Shown here one piece after another: positions 3,009 through 25,478 of a DNA stretch of 31,928 bases; position 1 is the first letter of the stretch; each line of letters opens with the position of its first letter. Both the position numbers and the translations under genes were made by a program. Source of the stretch: a virus. The stretch spans positions 1 to 31,928 of IMG/VR virus record IMGVR_UViG_3300020479_000001; one strand, written 5' to 3'. Under the pieces are notes generated by a model. The model did no database searches. It worked only from the letters and a program-made list of their open reading frames with translations, and had not been told where the DNA came from.

Positions 3009-3470
3009 TTGTTTGCGACCTTACTTTTTCACTTGCTGTTCCCAACGCTGCACTTTCGGCACAACCCTATCATCCCTGTAACTCACCGGGCACCATCCGT
3101 AGTATCCCTGACTGAGCGCGTCGCGGAGCAGGAGCGGGTGAGCCCGAGATTGGCGGTAGCGGTGCTGTACGTGGAGAACGGCGGCAATTTTCGGGGGTGC
3201 GATACACGAGTAAGCAATGCTGGGGCTATAGGGCCGATGCAGTTGGAGCCGGTGACGGCGAAGTGGTTGCATGTCAATCCATGGAACCCGGTGCAGAATA
3301 TCCGAGGTGGGGTGCGGTATCTGAAGTATTTGTTGCATAGGTTCGACGGGAGCCTCTGGTTGGCTCTGGAAGCGTACAACGCCGGGCCGACCGTGGTGCA
3401 GACCCAAGGGGCGCCGATAGGCGCGGTACAATACGCGAAAGCGGTGATTCGGAGAGAGGGGGACGTATGA
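3009..3470 (+). CDS. SLT-type lytic transglycosylase with N-terminal signal anchor
   Basis: 153 residues from TTG 3009, which follows AAAGGAG by about eight bases and the previous TAA by two. An earlier GTG (2988) would place this Shine-Dalgarno inside the coding region. Residues 1-16 are hydrophobic (signal peptide or anchor). The SLT family 1 signature follows: VLYVENGGNF with catalytic Glu56, NAGAIGPMQL (about residues 70-79), INPWNP.QNI..GVRYL-type helix, and ALEAYNAGP near the C-terminus. The enzyme cleaves the MurNAc-GlcNAc bond to give anhydro-muramyl ends. Being in the early operon rather than in the tail or lysis region is unusual; remodelling of the wall during infection is a possible role. 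Overlaps the next gene by ATGA. Confidence 0.85.
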   Translation: MFATLLFHLLFPTLHFRHNPIIPVTHRAPSVVSLTERVAEQERVSPRLAVAVLYVENGGNFRGCDTRVSNAGAIGPMQLEPVTAKWLHVNPWNPVQNIRGGVRYLKYLLHRFDGSLWLALEAYNAGPTVVQTQGAPIGAVQYAKAVIRREGDV

Positions 3471-18938: not shown

Positions 18939-20891
18939 TTACCCTATTCCCGCTGCCAACGGACGTGCTGTGCTTCTACCCTCCCCTGTAACGACGCTTT
19001 TTAACGCTTGCGCTACATGGTGAGCAATATCTTTATTAGAACCGTCACCATGCAGATATACATGAAGATGGCTTGTCGTTCCCGCTGCGGTAGGGGAGCC
19101 TACAGGGGCGACTTGGGGCGCTACCGGCAATGCACCGTCTGACTGCATGTGCTTCTTCATGTAATTGTCGTAGATATGCGCTGCTTGGGTAGTCAACGGA
19201 GTAGCTGGCGTCCATAGACCGAGAACTTTCCCTATCTCTGCAAGTCCTTTGAACATAAAAGAAAACGCATGATGTGCGTTCTTTAGCGCGGACTCTACTC
19301 CATTGGAACTACCAGCGATCCAAGAAAAGAAAGCCTTTGTCGCGTCAAACAGGCCCAATACCCCACCAACGATTGTTTTTCCGATACCACCTGTCAGGTG
19401 CGGGAACCATTTATCTAGGAGTTTTCCGATATTCCAACCCGTTAGGAAAGATACCCCCGCTTCTCCTGCGATTCCTGCGCCACCAAGAACGCTACCAATC
19501 CTCCCCAAAATCGGGAGTTTTTCTGCGAACTTGGACAAGAACCCCCCTACTTTCCTAACTGCGCCAAATATCCCCATACCAGCAGCCCATCCAGCCGCAG
19601 TAGCCAATACACCCCCAACGAAAGGCATGTGTTTTAAGGCAGTAGTCGCCCATCCGCCGACGGTATTCAAAACCCCTAAAGTACCAGAAACTGTTGGCGC
19701 CGCTTGTTTCCCGAGCACCGCCGCAAGTTTATCTACAGTTGCGGACAGCCGATTCATAGCGTTTACTGTGGGAGCGTCATATCTATTAGTAAACGGCGAA
19801 ACGGAGCCAAAGTGTTTATAATCATAGGGAGTGAAAAACAACCCTTCTAAAAACTTTGAATACATTCCACTATGACTTGAGGCTAGCTCCGCTTTTGCCC
19901 GCACTGACAAAAACGCAAGCGCCGCTTTATTATGTTCCACCTGATTTAACGACATACCAGCATAAGGGCTGCCCGCCTCCAAGGTAGGAAGCATGGTCTT
20001 TGCCAGTAACCGGGGATCGCGAATGAAACTCAGCATCTGTGATTTGCTAAAAGAGTAAGGATGGCCCCCTACCGCCATAGCTACCGAACCATTAACCCCC
20101 ACTCGAAACCCATTAAGCATGGCTGTTTGGACAGCGGCGGCAGAGGCGTTACCTGTCATAAGTGCCATCAATCGATTTGTAGCACCTGACCCTACCCCAC
20201 GAGTTTGCTGCAATAAAGTGTCTAGCCCGATGGAGCCAAACAGCATACTAGTAGATAGCCCCGCCGTACCCGCGTAAGGGGACTGCATAGCTCTGCGGAT
20301 GTTGCTAAGGTATGCACTTTGGTCTACGAATTTCCCCATGTTAGCGGCGACAAGTTGTGCGGTATGAATGGCATAGTTTTCTTGTTTGCCTGTAGGAACG
20401 CCTCTGGCCTGTGCATATCCAAGCCCCGCACTCAAAAACTTTTGCATAAACCCAGAAGAGTCCGCAGAGGACATCCCATACGTCCCACGAAGCATCTCTA
20501 CCGTTCGGTTATACATCCCCTCCGACTTCGGGTTCAGCCCTCTTGCGCCAAAATAGCCACCCAGTAGCATCCCTCGAGTCACCCCAGCCTCTGGTGTCAG
20601 AAACCCCGCAGCACCTTTCGTAGACAATGCTTGGTGCATGGCCTTGTGTGCCGTAGCAGTGTTTCGTAACCCAATTTCCAAAGTCGCCAGCATCTTCTGA
20701 TAGTTCTCAGCAGCCTTAGTCAACTCCACGAACGCACCGATACCCGCCGCCGCGAGGTCTACAAACCGATTTTTGAGCAAATCCGACGCAGCTTCCAGCC
20801 CGGCCAAGGCGAATGAATACTTCCCGATCTCACCAAGGAGGTTGCCGTAGGCTTTGAAGCGGATGCCTACCAGATAGTCTAGGCCAGCCAT
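18939..20891 (-). CDS. Tail tape measure protein
   Basis: 650 residues. Starts MAGLDYLVGIRFKAYGNLLGEIGKYSFALAG followed by a long helical region, a Gly/Ala-rich middle, hydrophobic segments near residues 430-500 (HMPFVGGVLATAAGWAAGMGIFGAV and further helices) and a C-terminal His-rich beta end (SHLHVYLHGDGSN). Position and composition fit tape measure proteins. Its length sets tail length; by the usual 0.15 nm per residue a tail near 95-100 nm is expected, as a rough inference. It overlaps the gp10-like gene by 1 base (TAATG) and lies downstream of the chaperone by two genes. Confidence 0.85.
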   Translation of the reverse strand: MAGLDYLVGIRFKAYGNLLGEIGKYSFALAGLEAASDLLKNRFVDLAAAGIGAFVELTKAAENYQKMLATLEIGLRNTATAHKAMHQALSTKGAAGFLTPEAGVTRGMLLGGYFGARGLNPKSEGMYNRTVEMLRGTYGMSSADSSGFMQKFLSAGLGYAQARGVPTGKQENYAIHTAQLVAANMGKFVDQSAYLSNIRRAMQSPYAGTAGLSTSMLFGSIGLDTLLQQTRGVGSGATNRLMALMTGNASAAAVQTAMLNGFRVGVNGSVAMAVGGHPYSFSKSQMLSFIRDPRLLAKTMLPTLEAGSPYAGMSLNQVEHNKAALAFLSVRAKAELASSHSGMYSKFLEGLFFTPYDYKHFGSVSPFTNRYDAPTVNAMNRLSATVDKLAAVLGKQAAPTVSGTLGVLNTVGGWATTALKHMPFVGGVLATAAGWAAGMGIFGAVRKVGGFLSKFAEKLPILGRIGSVLGGAGIAGEAGVSFLTGWNIGKLLDKWFPHLTGGIGKTIVGGVLGLFDATKAFFSWIAGSSNGVESALKNAHHAFSFMFKGLAEIGKVLGLWTPATPLTTQAAHIYDNYMKKHMQSDGALPVAPQVAPVGSPTAAGTTSHLHVYLHGDGSNKDIAHHVAQALKSVVTGEGRSTARPLAAGIG

Positions 20892-21421
20892 TATTCGTCC
20901 TCGCTCTCGGTCAGCGTAACTCGCTCGATGAAATGACCACTCATAGGCCCGTCGCCCTTACCATGCTTGAATACCACGCCTACGGTTTTCTTCACATGCT
21001 CCGACATCCGGTCATATACTTGGTGCGCCGTAGGCTCAAATACCGGACGTGCTGGTATATCCTGAGCGCCGGACCAAGGGTTCGGAGCGCCAAACTCCTG
21101 CGTCAACATCACTTCGTCATCCGTGCCTACCGCACTTTCGTTCTTTTGCACCGTCTTTTTCACACTATCCCGAAGGTGCCCAGTGACAAACAAAGGGGTA
21201 TTGGTCGTAGGAAATTCTCCAAGGATGGTTCCTGCGTTAGCTTCATGAGTTTCTAAAGTCCTTTTTGCCAACGGTGCCCATCCCGGTTGGTACACACCGA
21301 ACATCCCCTTAGCCGTTTTCTGCCCATCCTCCGCCAAGTTCTTCACGAGATTATGCTGCGCCTGTGCGAGTTCTTTCTGGAGTGCGGCCAACTCTTTCCC
21401 CATGCCTTTTGGGCTAAGCAT
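20891..21421 (-). CDS. Tail completion protein, HK97 gp10-like / Mu gpG-like morphogenesis family
   Basis: 176 residues. Has the family pattern: KNLAEDGQKTAKGMF, QPGWAPLAKRTLETH, TPLFVTGHLRDSVKKTV, then the EFGAPNPWSGAQDIPARPVFEPTA segment (E.G.....PARPF). Such proteins complete the neck or tail top. Its place here, between a LysM-like baseplate protein and the tape measure, differs from the usual location near the head genes. Both ends overlap neighbours by one base (TAATG). Assignment is by pattern. Confidence 0.7.
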   Translation of the reverse strand: MLSPKGMGKELAALQKELAQAQHNLVKNLAEDGQKTAKGMFGVYQPGWAPLAKRTLETHEANAGTILGEFPTTNTPLFVTGHLRDSVKKTVQKNESAVGTDDEVMLTQEFGAPNPWSGAQDIPARPVFEPTAHQVYDRMSEHVKKTVGVVFKHGKGDGPMSGHFIERVTLTESEDE

Positions 21422-22509
21422 TAGCTGAACCTCCCCGGATTCTGTTGCGGCGGTACGGAACTGGGGATTTGGATGTTGTATTGCCCTTGTGGGAATGGGT
21501 CGGTCAGGCCGTTGGCATACGCCAAGTCTACCCAGCGGGAAGCGTCCCCGTAGTATGAAGCGGCCAGACTCAACAGGTTCGGATTGATAAGGGAAAGCGT
21601 TTGTTGAATTGGAGAGACCGTCGTGTAGAGATTCTTTACGATCCCCGCATACGAAAGTACATGCGCGATGGATGCAGCAGCGGAAAGTGTCAACCCCGAA
21701 ACGCTATTGGCCTCCAGTATGCTATTCCCAAGACTCAATGCGCTATCCGCATAGAAACTCACTTGGTTCGCAATAGACGGGTCCACTACGTTCAGTACGT
21801 TGTCCGCGTAGAGAAGCCCTTGCTGGCCGTAAGCCACCATGTTTGCCAAAAACCCAGTTAACGTAGAAGGTAGCAAATCCCCAAAAACCGACACCGGGAT
21901 GTTGCCAGAAATAGCTGCGAACGCTTGATGTAGCTGTTCCACCGCCTGAGAAGTGTTTACCGTAGCGGGTGGAGAGCTTATGTCCTTGGACGGCACGAAC
22001 TCCAGATGGTACGTGCAGTACCACTCATTACGAATATAGACGTGAAAGGACTCGATCTTTCCCTCAAATTTCCACTTCCCGAAGGTCAGAGGGATTTTCT
22101 TGCCGTCTATCCGAAATCGGTCTAACTGATAGGCGCGATTCCACGCATTAGACCCGAGAAACACCCCATCCCAGCGAATTACGTCTGGAGGAAATGCCCC
22201 TAAGGACTGGATAGTGCGGATGCCACCGGGGAAGTTATGGACGGCAAGCATTTGGTCGCCGCCCACGGAGTCAAGCTGCTGTGGAATCTCCACTCCGACC
22301 AGCAAAAAGTCCCCGAGCTTGAATGGGTTTTGGATAGATTGAGCGTCGTGTGCGTTGATGACCGACTTAGTGGCTTTGTTAAGTTGCTTGGCCGCGAACT
22401 GATTGATTGCCGAACTGGAACTGACCTTGAGCGAATCCAACGCAGACGGCCCCCCACTCAGCAAGTAATCCGCTGTGGTAGAACCAAGTGTGCCAAGGAT
22501 TCCGCTCAT
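21421..22509 (-). CDS. Tail or baseplate protein with LysM-like C-terminal segment
   Basis: 362 residues. A central beta region (IRTIQSLGAFPPDVIRWDGVFLGSNAWNRAYQLDRFRIDGKKIPLTFGKWKFEGKI.SF) resembles proteins in contractile tails with an 'R....PP.I.W.G......A..R...L' pattern. C-terminal SLAASYYGDASRWVDLAYANGLTDPFPQG is LysM-like, as in gp53-type baseplate proteins, followed by a Pro/Gln tail. It starts directly after the frameshift stop. Not certain whether it acts in the baseplate or the tail tube; the LysM part suggests peptidoglycan contact. Confidence 0.65.
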   Translation of the reverse strand: MSGILGTLGSTTADYLLSGGPSALDSLKVSSSSAINQFAAKQLNKATKSVINAHDAQSIQNPFKLGDFLLVGVEIPQQLDSVGGDQMLAVHNFPGGIRTIQSLGAFPPDVIRWDGVFLGSNAWNRAYQLDRFRIDGKKIPLTFGKWKFEGKIESFHVYIRNEWYCTYHLEFVPSKDISSPPATVNTSQAVEQLHQAFAAISGNIPVSVFGDLLPSTLTGFLANMVAYGQQGLLYADNVLNVVDPSIANQVSFYADSALSLGNSILEANSVSGLTLSAAASIAHVLSYAGIVKNLYTTVSPIQQTLSLINPNLLSLAASYYGDASRWVDLAYANGLTDPFPQGQYNIQIPSSVPPQQNPGRFS

Positions 22510-23105
22510 TTATCCGCCCTTTGGGAAAGTCACCGCACCCGTATCCCAGTCCACTTTTCCGCCATCCAAAGTAGCAGCATAGTATAAAAACGCTCGACGC
22601 TCCAATGGGTGCATCGCCGTGGCCTCAGACCAAGACAATCCGTGTTTTACCGCGCTCACACACTCCCGAAAGTCCGGGAGTTCCACTATTTTTTTATGAT
22701 GGGCAACTCCTCTTTAGAGGGCATCGGCCAGAACTTCTCGTAGGCCGACATAACCAAATCCTCACCTCGATCCCCAAGCTGATCTGCGATCTTCTGCAAA
22801 TCCACCATGGCGCTGACTGGACCGACCGGAACGCCGTCAATGGAACGCACGTACATAAGCGCCTTCATCCACATCACCAAAATGGATATGTTCCCCTGAT
22901 TGGCATCCCCGAGCATCATGGCGATTTTCCGCATCGTGCCGCCCGGAGGAGGAGCCATGACCACTTCCTTACCGCCAATGTCCAGTGTGATTTCCTCACG
23001 ACCTTCAATACGGGCGCGTTCCTGTGCCTGCCGTTCCGCCAACACCTGCGCTGCCCGGAGTAGTTCCGGGTTATTTGATACGTCCGCTACCTTCCGTGTG
23101 CTCAT
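22510..23105 (-). CDS. Tail assembly chaperone, -1 frameshift long form (gpGT-like)
   Basis: A -1 shift on A_AAA_AAA (22695-22689) lets the ribosome bypass the TAG at 22688-22686 and read 59 more codons, ending TAA at 22512-22510, for 198 residues in total. The extension reads like a natural protein: SAVKHGLSWSEATAMHPLER, AFLYYAATLDGGKVDWDTG, VTFPKGG. The pattern 'ER.AFL....A...GG..DW.TG' fits the T part of gpGT proteins in other phages. It has no good start codon of its own. It ends one base before ATG 22509 of the next gene, a further sign that this frame is used. Confidence 0.85.
22662..22695 (-). promoter_or_regulatory. Programmed -1 ribosomal frameshift signal
   Basis: Slippery heptamer A_AAA_AAA in the zero frame at 22695-22689, then a 7-base spacer, then a stem of seven pairs (22681-22675 with 22668-22662; ACTCCCG / CGGGAGT) with a 6-base loop GACTTT. 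Position and spacing match known stimulatory stem-loops. Confidence 0.88.
22686..23105 (-). CDS. Tail assembly chaperone, short form (gpG-like)
   Basis: 139 residues. Located between tube and tape measure, the usual place for the tail chaperone. The N-terminal half is charged helix (LAERQAQERARIEGREEITLDI) and contains KEVVMAPPPGGTMRKIAMMLGDANQGN followed by helices; the end is LPIIKK. The last codons ATA AAA AAA TAG contain the slip site for the long form. It overlaps the MerR-like gene by 35 bases. The short form alone and the long form together normally guide tube polymerisation on the tape measure. Confidence 0.8.
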   Translation of the reverse strand: MSTRKVADVSNNPELLRAAQVLAERQAQERARIEGREEITLDIGGKEVVMAPPPGGTMRKIAMMLGDANQGNISILVMWMKALMYVRSIDGVPVGPVSAMVDLQKIADQLGDRGEDLVMSAYEKFWPMPSKEELPIIKK

Positions 23106-23277
23106 TCTGTGTCTCCATGTTCAGTTGTCTGCGTAAAAGCTCCAAATCGAACCGTCGATGATTGCCCGGTGTGCGAAGGGCCGTGATGACCCCCGCGTTG
23201 TGCCATGCCCGCAGGGCCTGTTCGGATACCCCCAGTTCCCGTGCCGCCGTACTGATATTGACGATTTTCCGTTCCAT
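23071..23277 (-). CDS. MerR-type helix-turn-helix regulator, probably leaderless
   Basis: 68 residues. Matches the MerR/excisionase-like HTH: ISTAARELGVSEQALRAWHNAGVI followed by RTPGNHRRFDLELLRRQL (the wing with the conserved P.G.HRR). There is no C-terminal effector domain. No Shine-Dalgarno is present; the predicted transcript starts at the A of ATG 23277, so it may be translated without a leader. Upstream an in-frame TAA rules out a longer start. The gene lies in the middle of the tail operon, between a terminator and the chaperone, and overlaps the chaperone start by 35 bases. It may regulate its own promoter or late genes; the direction of control is unknown. Confidence 0.8.
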   Translation of the reverse strand: MERKIVNISTAARELGVSEQALRAWHNAGVITALRTPGNHRRFDLELLRRQLNMETQNEHTEGSGRIK

Positions 23278-23312: not shown

Positions 23313-23337
23313 TAAAAAAGGGCTGCCGAAGCAGCCC
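23311..23337 (-). terminator. Rho-independent terminator after tail tube gene
   Basis: On the minus strand GGGCTGC-TTCG-GCAGCCC (seven perfect G:C-rich pairs around a UUCG tetraloop) followed by TTTTTTATT. It lies 34 bases after the tube stop and upstream of the MerR-like gene. Confidence 0.93.
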
Positions 23338-23371: not shown

Positions 23372-23887
23372 TCAAGTGGAGGAAAGAGCGCCCACCAACG
23401 GAATACCAGAAAGGATGCTGGCAAGGTTGGTCGTAGACTCAATGGTCGGGCAAGAGAAGGAGAGTTTTTGCGTAACCTGCTCAATGCCATTGAACTCACC
23501 GAAGTCCGGGGTGTGGAATACGAGATCGGGGAAAATATACTCGTCCACTTGACCGCCATGGTTTAGCACGTTCAGGGACAGTGTGAAATGTGGAAGCAAA
23601 CCCTCGTTGTAGAAAGCAGCATACAGGGAAGTGAACATACTAGTCAGGTTGCCATTAACCCGCACAAAGGTCATGTCTCCGCTGATACCGTTTGGGATGG
23701 CTTGGTAAATTGGTCGGCCCCCGTTGGTGATCGGGGTGATCTTTAGCATGTGCAAATCGAAATTCGCGTTGACACTCATGAGATCGCCAAGGTCAGCCAA
23801 AGAGAACGTGTCCCCGTAGCTGTCCGAGATTACTCCGGATATGTCCGTACCAATGTTGAAGCTAGAGTTTACCGTGAAGTTTGCCAT
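23372..23887 (-). CDS. Tail tube protein
   Basis: 171 residues from ATG 23887, with TAAGGAG upstream. A longer frame from 23944 overlaps the sheath gene and is rejected. The protein is beta-rich: MANFTVNSSFNIGTDISGVISDSYG, LMSVNANFDLHMLKITPITNGG, RVNGNLTSMFTSLYAAFY, HFTLSLNVLNHGG, YIFPDLVF. Size, composition and position directly after the sheath identify it as the tube subunit. It is the last gene before the strong terminator, which fits its high-copy role. Ten-base gap to the sheath stop. Confidence 0.85.
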   Translation of the reverse strand: MANFTVNSSFNIGTDISGVISDSYGDTFSLADLGDLMSVNANFDLHMLKITPITNGGRPIYQAIPNGISGDMTFVRVNGNLTSMFTSLYAAFYNEGLLPHFTLSLNVLNHGGQVDEYIFPDLVFHTPDFGEFNGIEQVTQKLSFSCPTIESTTNLASILSGIPLVGALSST

Positions 23888-23897
23888 TACTAGCTCC

Positions 23898-25478
23898 TTA
23901 CGCTGCCGTGGCTGCCGGGGAAACTGTGACCACCGTAGTACCACCCTGCAAACTGATAACGAAATACCAAACGCTGCTCAGATACCGCACCGCTGCAAAG
24001 GCATACAAGTAATGCTGGGCGATAGTCGCCGGGGTATTGATGCCTAGCTGTGGATTTCCGGACGTGGCATAAGTACAGACCACGTTGAAAGCGTCAATCA
24101 GCCCAGCCTCTTGCAGCCCTTTCAGGAACGTGTTGAGGGTATGCCGTACTTTAGCCCGCAAAGGATCAGCGGGGCGAGCCGTCTGCAACTGGCCTACGAA
24201 AGCCCCCATAGACTCCCCAAAACTCAAATCAAGGAAGTTGGTCATGGTGGCGTACTCCACCGGGCTTTGCGCCGTGTTCGTGCTGGTGTTCGTCGCCGTG
24301 GCGATACCAAAAACGTTGCCCTGCGGGATTGGATTCGTGATAACCAACACGCCCAAAGACTGCAAAATGCCAATTTCCGATTGGCTATACGGTACGTCGC
24401 CGGTGTAGGGATTGTTGCGCTCCGTGCCGACTACACCGTTGACCGTCTTATTCAAAGGAGACTGCGCCGGAGACAGAGCCGTGATTGTACCCATAGTGAA
24501 AGGATACGGGGCTACCAACCGCACCACGGCATTTACCGGGTCGTTCCAGTAAATCCAGTCCTTCAACCAAGAGAACTCATAGCTGCTCTGCGCTGCGGCG
24601 TTGATAAGAGTCTGTGCCTCTGACGTACTGGTGCCAGTCGGAAGGGCCATAGCCGTGAAGATCGCATTAGCCTCACAGAAAGCCAACTGATCTGCCAGTA
24701 CCGACGTGTCCGTATTTCCCGCCAACCAAGCCTTCTGCGGGTACGGGTTCAATGACGAAGCCAAATACAGGCCGGTCGGAGGGTTGGTCTGGTTCTGTCC
24801 CAAAAGATCGCTCGCCGTAACACCAGACGCCCCGTCCGTGCCGCCAGAAAGGGTATAAGTTTGTGCTGTAGGTGCCCCCGCCGCATTGTTGGCATTATTC
24901 AAGCGAATCAACCGCGAAGGCCCAACCACGCCACTGATACCAGAACTGAGCGCCGAAGCCAGCGAAGTCCAGAAAGTCGATGCGGGGATGTTCGGGAAAG
25001 TCTCTTGATTACGGAACGCTGAGGTGACGAATACGTTGTAGTAATTCTGGTTCGCTGCTTGCTGGATCGTGACGTTGATAGTATTGCCGGACGACCCCGT
25101 ATGCAGTGCAGTAATCGTGCCCCCACTGGCGGTAGCCCCGCTGGCAACGACCGAAGCTGCTACGTCCGTCCCATCCGTGACCCGAACACCCCACAGGGAA
25201 ATGAACCCCTGCTGAAAAGCAATAGTCAGGTCCGTACAAAGATCGTGCGGGTCCGTGAGGGCCGCTGCGGTGATCCCACCAAATTCCTGCTGTGCCTCAG
25301 AGGGATCGGAGGTAATACGTGGAGCATTGACCGGACCCCAAGTCGCCGTACCTACTACAAGGCCAATATTGGTAGGCGTACCGGGCAGATACGGCGTAGG
25401 TGGGACGTTATTGATGTACAGGCCGGGAGCCTGAAAATCCGCAGGATTGAAGCTGGAACTGGAAATAATCGTCGGCAT
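23898..25478 (-). CDS. Tail sheath protein
   Basis: 526 residues. N-terminal APGLYINNVPPTPYLPGTPTNIGLVVGTATWGPVNAPRITSD is the usual sheath beginning ('..GV......P......T.....G.A..GP...P'), followed by FGG....DLCTDLTIAFQQGFISLWGVRVTDGT, a variable insertion domain (about residues 115-230), and C-terminal LGVLVITNPIPQG, with the LNTFLKGLQEAGLIDAFNV and QHYLYAFAAVRYLSSVWYFVISL segments of the conserved C-terminal sheath domain. Contracts around the tube. Presence of this gene defines the contractile tail. Confidence 0.93.
   Translation of the reverse strand: MPTIISSSSFNPADFQAPGLYINNVPPTPYLPGTPTNIGLVVGTATWGPVNAPRITSDPSEAQQEFGGITAAALTDPHDLCTDLTIAFQQGFISLWGVRVTDGTDVAASVVASGATASGGTITALHTGSSGNTINVTIQQAANQNYYNVFVTSAFRNQETFPNIPASTFWTSLASALSSGISGVVGPSRLIRLNNANNAAGAPTAQTYTLSGGTDGASGVTASDLLGQNQTNPPTGLYLASSLNPYPQKAWLAGNTDTSVLADQLAFCEANAIFTAMALPTGTSTSEAQTLINAAAQSSYEFSWLKDWIYWNDPVNAVVRLVAPYPFTMGTITALSPAQSPLNKTVNGVVGTERNNPYTGDVPYSQSEIGILQSLGVLVITNPIPQGNVFGIATATNTSTNTAQSPVEYATMTNFLDLSFGESMGAFVGQLQTARPADPLRAKVRHTLNTFLKGLQEAGLIDAFNVVCTYATSGNPQLGINTPATIAQHYLYAFAAVRYLSSVWYFVISLQGGTTVVTVSPAATAA

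Follow-up and report, generated by a model that had tools for sequence, protein, structure and literature searches.

The stretch of viral DNA analysed here (the window, a virus record of 31,928 bases) carries a minus-strand operon for a contractile tail, in which the genes are ordered sheath, tube, HTH gene, G, T, a gene for a 362-residue protein, a Neck1-like gene and the tape measure gene (Table 1). G and T lie between the tube and tape measure genes, the latter assigned by position and length only. The placement given in the original prediction therefore stands in outline, but the HTH, 362-residue and Neck1-like genes intervene. The 362-residue protein has a C-terminal stretch that weakly matches the baseplate-hub family phrog_184. 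Its gene precedes the tape measure gene in the window, whereas its homologue in Komagataeibacter phage phiKX1 (L002, 6001-6525) comes after it; this is a gene-order change within related tails.

Table 1. Features of the tail operon around gene G (window coordinates unless another record is named)
Feature	Position	Strand	Basis
Tail sheath protein	23898..25478	-	PHROG 279, E 4.7e-11; 30% identical to the annotated phiKX1 sheath
Probable tail tube protein	23372..23887	-	PHROG 12993, as in the corresponding phiKX1 gene
Small MerR-like HTH gene	23071..23277 (window), 3102..3293 (L006)	- (window)	Pfam MerR, E 6.6e-10
Gene G, tail assembly chaperone, zero frame	22686..23105	-	ORF, 139 aa; PHROG 20383, E 1.7e-5; fold
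Shine-Dalgarno-like block AAAGAGGAG inside G	22707..22715	-	Sequence; identical in L006
Slip heptamer A_AAA_AAA, G frame	22689..22695	-	Sequence; identical in L006
Zero-frame stop TAG of G, directly 3' of the heptamer	22686..22688	-	Sequence
GTG in the T frame overlapping the G stop (TAGTG), possible start of free T	22684..22686	-	Sequence; ATG in L006
Stem-loop ACTCCCGG-ACTT-TCGGGAGT, 7 nt 3' of the heptamer	22662..22681	-	RNAfold
T domain, -1 frame, C-terminal extension of the GT fusion	22510..22689	-	59 codons + TAA
362-residue protein gene after T	21421..22509	-	PHROG 21362
Neck1/tail-completion-like protein	20891..21421	-	PHROG 222, E 3.7e-11
Probable tape measure protein, 650 aa	18939..20891	-	Position and length only; no family match

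Several other features of the region deserve mention. The MerR-like HTH gene, which sits between tube and G both in the window and in its relative L006 and overlaps the start of G, also weakly matches a terminase small subunit family. Just past the tube gene is a strong hairpin resembling an intrinsic terminator (GGGCTGC-TTCG-GCAGCCC followed by TTTTTT; 23337..23320, minus strand), and directly upstream of the HTH gene a TTGACT lies 17 nt before a TAAAAC, a pair that was left unscored in the promoter scan. The abundant sheath and tube transcript may end at this terminator-like hairpin, with the chaperone section beginning anew. A fragment resembling an HNH/homing endonuclease (31296..31859, minus strand), next to the gene for the major head protein at the end of the contig, matches the C-terminal part only of PHROG 559.

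The AlphaFold model of G has a mean pLDDT of 77.6, and the best match of its fold in the PDB is the HK97 tail assembly chaperone (2ob9; probability 0.94, E 0.078, TM 0.41-0.50), with a weak match to YqbN (3klu; probability 0.18). Among viral models (BFVD), several annotated tail assembly chaperones are matched with a probability of 1.00. The predicted fold supports the assignment of G as a tail assembly chaperone.

The last codons of G read AAA GAG GAG TTG CCC ATC ATA AAA AAA TAG, encoding the C-terminus KEELPIIKK*. As originally described, the gene thus ends in ATA AAA AAA TAG with an in-frame A_AAA_AAA (22695..22689 in reading direction), which supplies the last two codons before the stop. 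After the stop comes TGGA ACTCCCGG ACTT TCGGGAGT, leaving a spacer of 7 nt (TAGTGGA) between heptamer and hairpin. The stem ACTCCCG/CGGGAGT is present where it had been placed, 7 nt past the slip site, and its seven pairs are borne out; RNAfold adds an eighth, G.U pair and turns the supposed 6-base loop into an ACTT tetraloop, which is a trivial difference. The resulting 8-pair hairpin has a predicted energy of -12.7 to -13.6 kcal/mol and a modest z-score of -1.41. Overlooked at first reading was a Shine-Dalgarno (SD)-like block (AGGAG) whose 3' end lies 11 nt upstream of the heptamer, so that block, heptamer and hairpin together form a three-part, dnaX-like layout. In the window the -1 frame is interrupted by a stop six codons upstream of the heptamer codons, confining any shift to a short segment with A_AAA_AAA as the sole proper in-frame slip heptamer. 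Among 34 minus-strand ORFs of the window, G alone has an A_AAA_AAN within its last 50 codons; codon shuffles of G place an in-frame A_AAA_AAN within the last five codons in 0.075% of cases, and random sequences contain a perfect 7-bp stem at such a spacing in 0.17%.

Read from the ATA at 22689, the -1 frame runs through 59 codons without a stop (IVELPDFRECVSAVKHGLSWSEATAMHPLERRAFLYYAATLDGGKVDWDTGAVTFPKGG*), and its TAA (22512..22510) directly abuts the ATG of the next gene at 22509, confirming the predicted extent. Open -1 frames of at least 59 codons past the stop are, however, found in 19 of 34 minus-strand ORFs of the window, many of which overlap the next gene, and the open frame alone is therefore weak evidence.

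Stronger evidence comes from a 9.2-kb IMG/VR contig (IMGVR_UViG_3300005573_000603; records L006 and L007, hereafter L006), the sole close relative found. Single-protein scans of viral contigs with G and with the 362-residue protein gave no match, nor did a first genome scan with the sheath, and tblastn in phages returned nothing for G and spurious matches only for T. Eight further contigs from a DNA pattern scan (nine matched including L007) had nothing resembling T among their products and were discarded as chance matches. L006 has the same gene order as the window, with identities over aligned positions of 77% for the sheath, 80% for the tube, 55% for G, 64% for T, 59% for the 362-residue protein and 33% for the tape measure protein. 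At its junction (AAAGAGGAGTTGCCCACCGTAAAAAAATAATGGAACTCCCGGAGTTCCGGGAGT), the SD-like block, the heptamer, the spacing and the hairpin are all kept; the stem-loop reads ACTCCCGG-AGTT-CCGGGAGT, in which the G.U pair of the window has become G-C. Of all 70-nt windows in the alignment of about 6.5 kb, 22730..22661 ranks first, with 88.6% identity against a mean of 54.7%. Within the signal stretch, 13 of 14 conserved residues use the same codon, compared to a fraction of about 0.41 elsewhere (binomial P about 8e-5, which is indicative only, since the stretch was picked after inspection). With a single close relative, the case for the hairpin and the SD-like block in this lineage comes from comparing two sequences, between which one stem pair changes consistently.

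Changes in T between the two sequences fall 17/11/32 over the three codon positions, as for a coding frame. This bears on the possibility that the -1 frame is open by accident or is a product of decay, which the frequency of such open frames in this compact genome would allow; the codon-position pattern, the 64% amino acid identity of T, its homology to the T of distant phages (below) and the first rank of the junction in nucleotide conservation reduce the probability of chance or decay to a negligible one.

The distant phages are prophages of the phiKX1 type. The phiKX1 gene at the position of G belongs to the same PHROG (20383), and a search with it yielded 45 loci with 36 distinct junctions, from Komagataeibacter, Asaia, Gluconobacter, Acidomonas, Tanticharoenia and other Acetobacteraceae genomes and from virus contigs. 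In every one of the 36, G ends in A_AAA_AAC directly before TGA or TAA and is followed by 56-66 open codons in the -1 frame; the AAA AAC codons are fixed although G just upstream differs among the junctions in both length and sequence. Alignment of the -1 products with the T of the window is free of gaps, except for an insert in some, and shows the shared pattern P.FRE....K.G..W.......RR.A...G...DW. In hhalign, single pairwise comparisons of window and Acetobacteraceae proteins gave E-values of 2.7e-10 for T and 1.3e-5 for G. Stop codons throughout the -1 frame of relatives, which the original prediction had named as a refutation, were looked for and not seen: the T protein is conserved in L006 and in the Acetobacteraceae prophages. 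A hairpin starting 6 nt past the heptamer is predicted in this group, with two-sided changes in 5 of 12 pairs; its arms also code for conserved residues. The Acetobacteraceae junctions do not conserve the SD-like block. In two Asaia astilbis loci (L030 and L061) T changes frame about 17 codons in, with KMGCLGLS in place of the KNGVPWSVV of relatives and the slip site intact, which points to a decayed prophage or a sequencing error. The sequence elements, their conservation and the conservation of both frames as protein are directly established by these comparisons.

The T domain itself resembles nothing that is named. The pattern ER.AFLYYAA..DGG.VDWDTG, which had been put forward as typical of gpGT-type tails, has no significant Pfam or PHROG family match, and we could not uphold that reading; the pattern belongs to the window lineage and its Acetobacteraceae cousins and is not a general gpGT signature. 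Searches of T against Pfam and PHROG gave noise-level matches only, and a match between the L006 T and a 'tail chaperonin' family (E 0.025), likewise at noise level, was not used. The AlphaFold model of T (mean pLDDT 92.6) consists of three helices and a beta hairpin, and a search with this fold gave no named match, the best being an unnamed 49-residue phage protein (probability 0.99, E 0.18). In the databases searched here, the window lineage and its short T domain match no described family.

A different way of making T would be coupled termination and reinitiation, in which ribosomes restart at the GTG (ATG in L006) over the stop of G and produce a free T of 58 residues and no fusion. The overlaps, TAGTG for the window and TAATG for L006 (where the stop of G is TAA), offer a start at the second codon of T in either sequence, so that a separately started T is possible in these two phages; stop-start overlaps couple translation (PMC6728339), and the chaperones of T4-like phages are reportedly not made via frameshifting (title of Vladimirov et al. 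2022, cited in PMC10885494). The original statements that T has no good start and would be missed by gene calling were accordingly too strong, the second judged solely from the GTG overlapping the stop; what holds is that no SD motif is found 4-13 nt upstream of the GTG, nor before the ATG of L006. The conserved AGGAG lies 20 nt upstream, a distance too great for ordinary initiation and right for frameshift stimulation, and reinitiation leaves both the fixed A7 run and the conserved hairpin unexplained. It equally fails to account for the homologous A_AAA_AAC systems in which T has no start: in 18 of the 36 Acetobacteraceae junctions, ATG, GTG and TTG are absent from the first ten T codons, so that a complete T there needs a frameshift; this is what speaks most strongly against reinitiation as the usual mode in the G-T family. 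As the explanation of the locus, reinitiation without fusion is improbable; in the window lineage, reinitiation alone or beside frameshifting is possible. A dual arrangement, in which heptamer and stop-start overlap (TAGTG/TAATG) would give both a GT fusion and free T and the dose of T would be set by two independent routes, is unlikely, if somewhat less so.

The A7 run of the window is also a homopolymer, and such runs are suspected of causing indels in mRNA (PMC4066793), so that transcriptional slippage might create mRNAs with altered numbers of A that place T in frame with G. The Acetobacteraceae junctions, however, have only six A before a C, which suits the slippage of two tRNAs in tandem, and transcriptional slippage would give the conserved hairpin and the SD-like block no role, which makes it highly improbable. 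A frameshift of the insertion sequence type was considered as well, since IS1 and IS3 elements favour the same heptamers (PMC4066793), and was rejected, given that tail genes surround the locus.

A programmed -1 ribosomal frameshift that yields a gpG/gpGT-type pair of tail assembly chaperones is therefore very probably the correct reading. The frameshift interpretation of the original prediction is supported by the signal elements and by the conservation of both frames as protein; that frameshifting itself occurs, with what efficiency, and how G and T function, we infer. Most ribosomes would terminate at TAG and release G (139 residues). A minority would pause on AAA AAA, with the SD-like block paired to the anti-SD and the hairpin ahead, and both lysyl-tRNAs would slip back by one base on A_AAA_AAA; reading would then continue through ATA GTG GAA to TAA, producing a GT fusion of 198 residues (139 + 59). 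By analogy with lambda, G would coat the tape measure and T would recruit the tube subunit, with neither being kept in the virion. The conserved signal, the homologous G and T and the fold of G place the locus in the gpG/gpGT frameshift class and do not call for a new mechanism.

This kind of frameshift has been known since lambda (1993), and the finding in the window is sound but ordinary; what is new is the lineage and a T domain without a database family. An uncultivated contractile-tailed lineage and, from acetic acid bacteria, prophages of the phiKX1 type join the phages for which a G-T frameshift is strongly supported, and a T domain missed by Pfam and PHROGs now has a profile. In phiKX1, G and T are annotated as separate hypothetical genes, and frameshifting is not mentioned in the paper on phiKX1 and phiKX2 (PMC8566455). 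Such pairs in Acetobacteraceae prophages are most likely one frameshifted gene, and pairs of 'hypothetical proteins' in public records become recognisable as such. The fixed slip site over 36 divergent junctions also constitutes a clean natural data set on frameshift signals.

Frameshifting of the gpG/gpGT kind is conserved across a wide range of long-tailed phages (Levin 1993; Xu 2004, 2013; reviewed in PMC5009743). Lambda produces G and GT in a ratio of about 30:1, and the two proteins connect the tape measure with the tube (PMC5009743). The window shares with these phages a chaperone gene between tube and tape measure, a -1 shift near the 3' end that adds a domain, and a chaperone-like G fold for which HK97 2ob9 is the best PDB match. 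Unlike them, it has a contractile tail, a three-part dnaX-like signal, a T that matches no described family and extra genes between T and the tape measure. A_AAA_AAA belongs to the V_VV.A_AA.R class, which is efficient in E. coli (PMC4066793), whose ribosome may differ from that of the host, and it is less shifty than A_AAA_AAG (PMC5009743).

YqbN of the Skin/PBSX type (PDB 3klu) and gp14 of Brevibacillus phage Emery have a predicted, weak fold similarity to G, and T has no detectable sequence similarity to these systems. Emery gp14 (L003, 1808..1969) contains an in-frame A_AAA_AAC and an open -1 frame of 54 codons, with gp15 annotated separately downstream, and is likely an unannotated G-T frameshift; its slip site is about 13 codons upstream of the stop, unlike that of the window, which directly precedes it. 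In Alicyclobacillus phage MMB025 (L005, 2723..3243), a 'baseplate hub' gene after the tube ends in an in-frame C_CCT_TTA with an open -1 frame, and may be a misnamed tail chaperone with a frameshift. The Komagataeibacter phages phiKX1 and phiKX2 and the related Acetobacteraceae prophages have homologous G and T, a slip site just before the stop and related sheath and tube proteins, and differ from the window in having A_AAA_AAC, no conserved SD-like block and a longer hairpin.

The E. coli dnaX signal consists of an SD-like block about 10 nt upstream, an A-rich heptamer and a hairpin downstream. The window and L006 likewise have an SD-like block, AAAGAGGAG, 11 nt before the heptamer, and a downstream hairpin of 8 bp after a 7-nt spacer. 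In dnaX, however, the heptamer is A_AAA_AAG and the shift gives a shorter product, whereas in the window the heptamer is A_AAA_AAA and the shift would give a longer one; the likeness is one of signal and not of gene.
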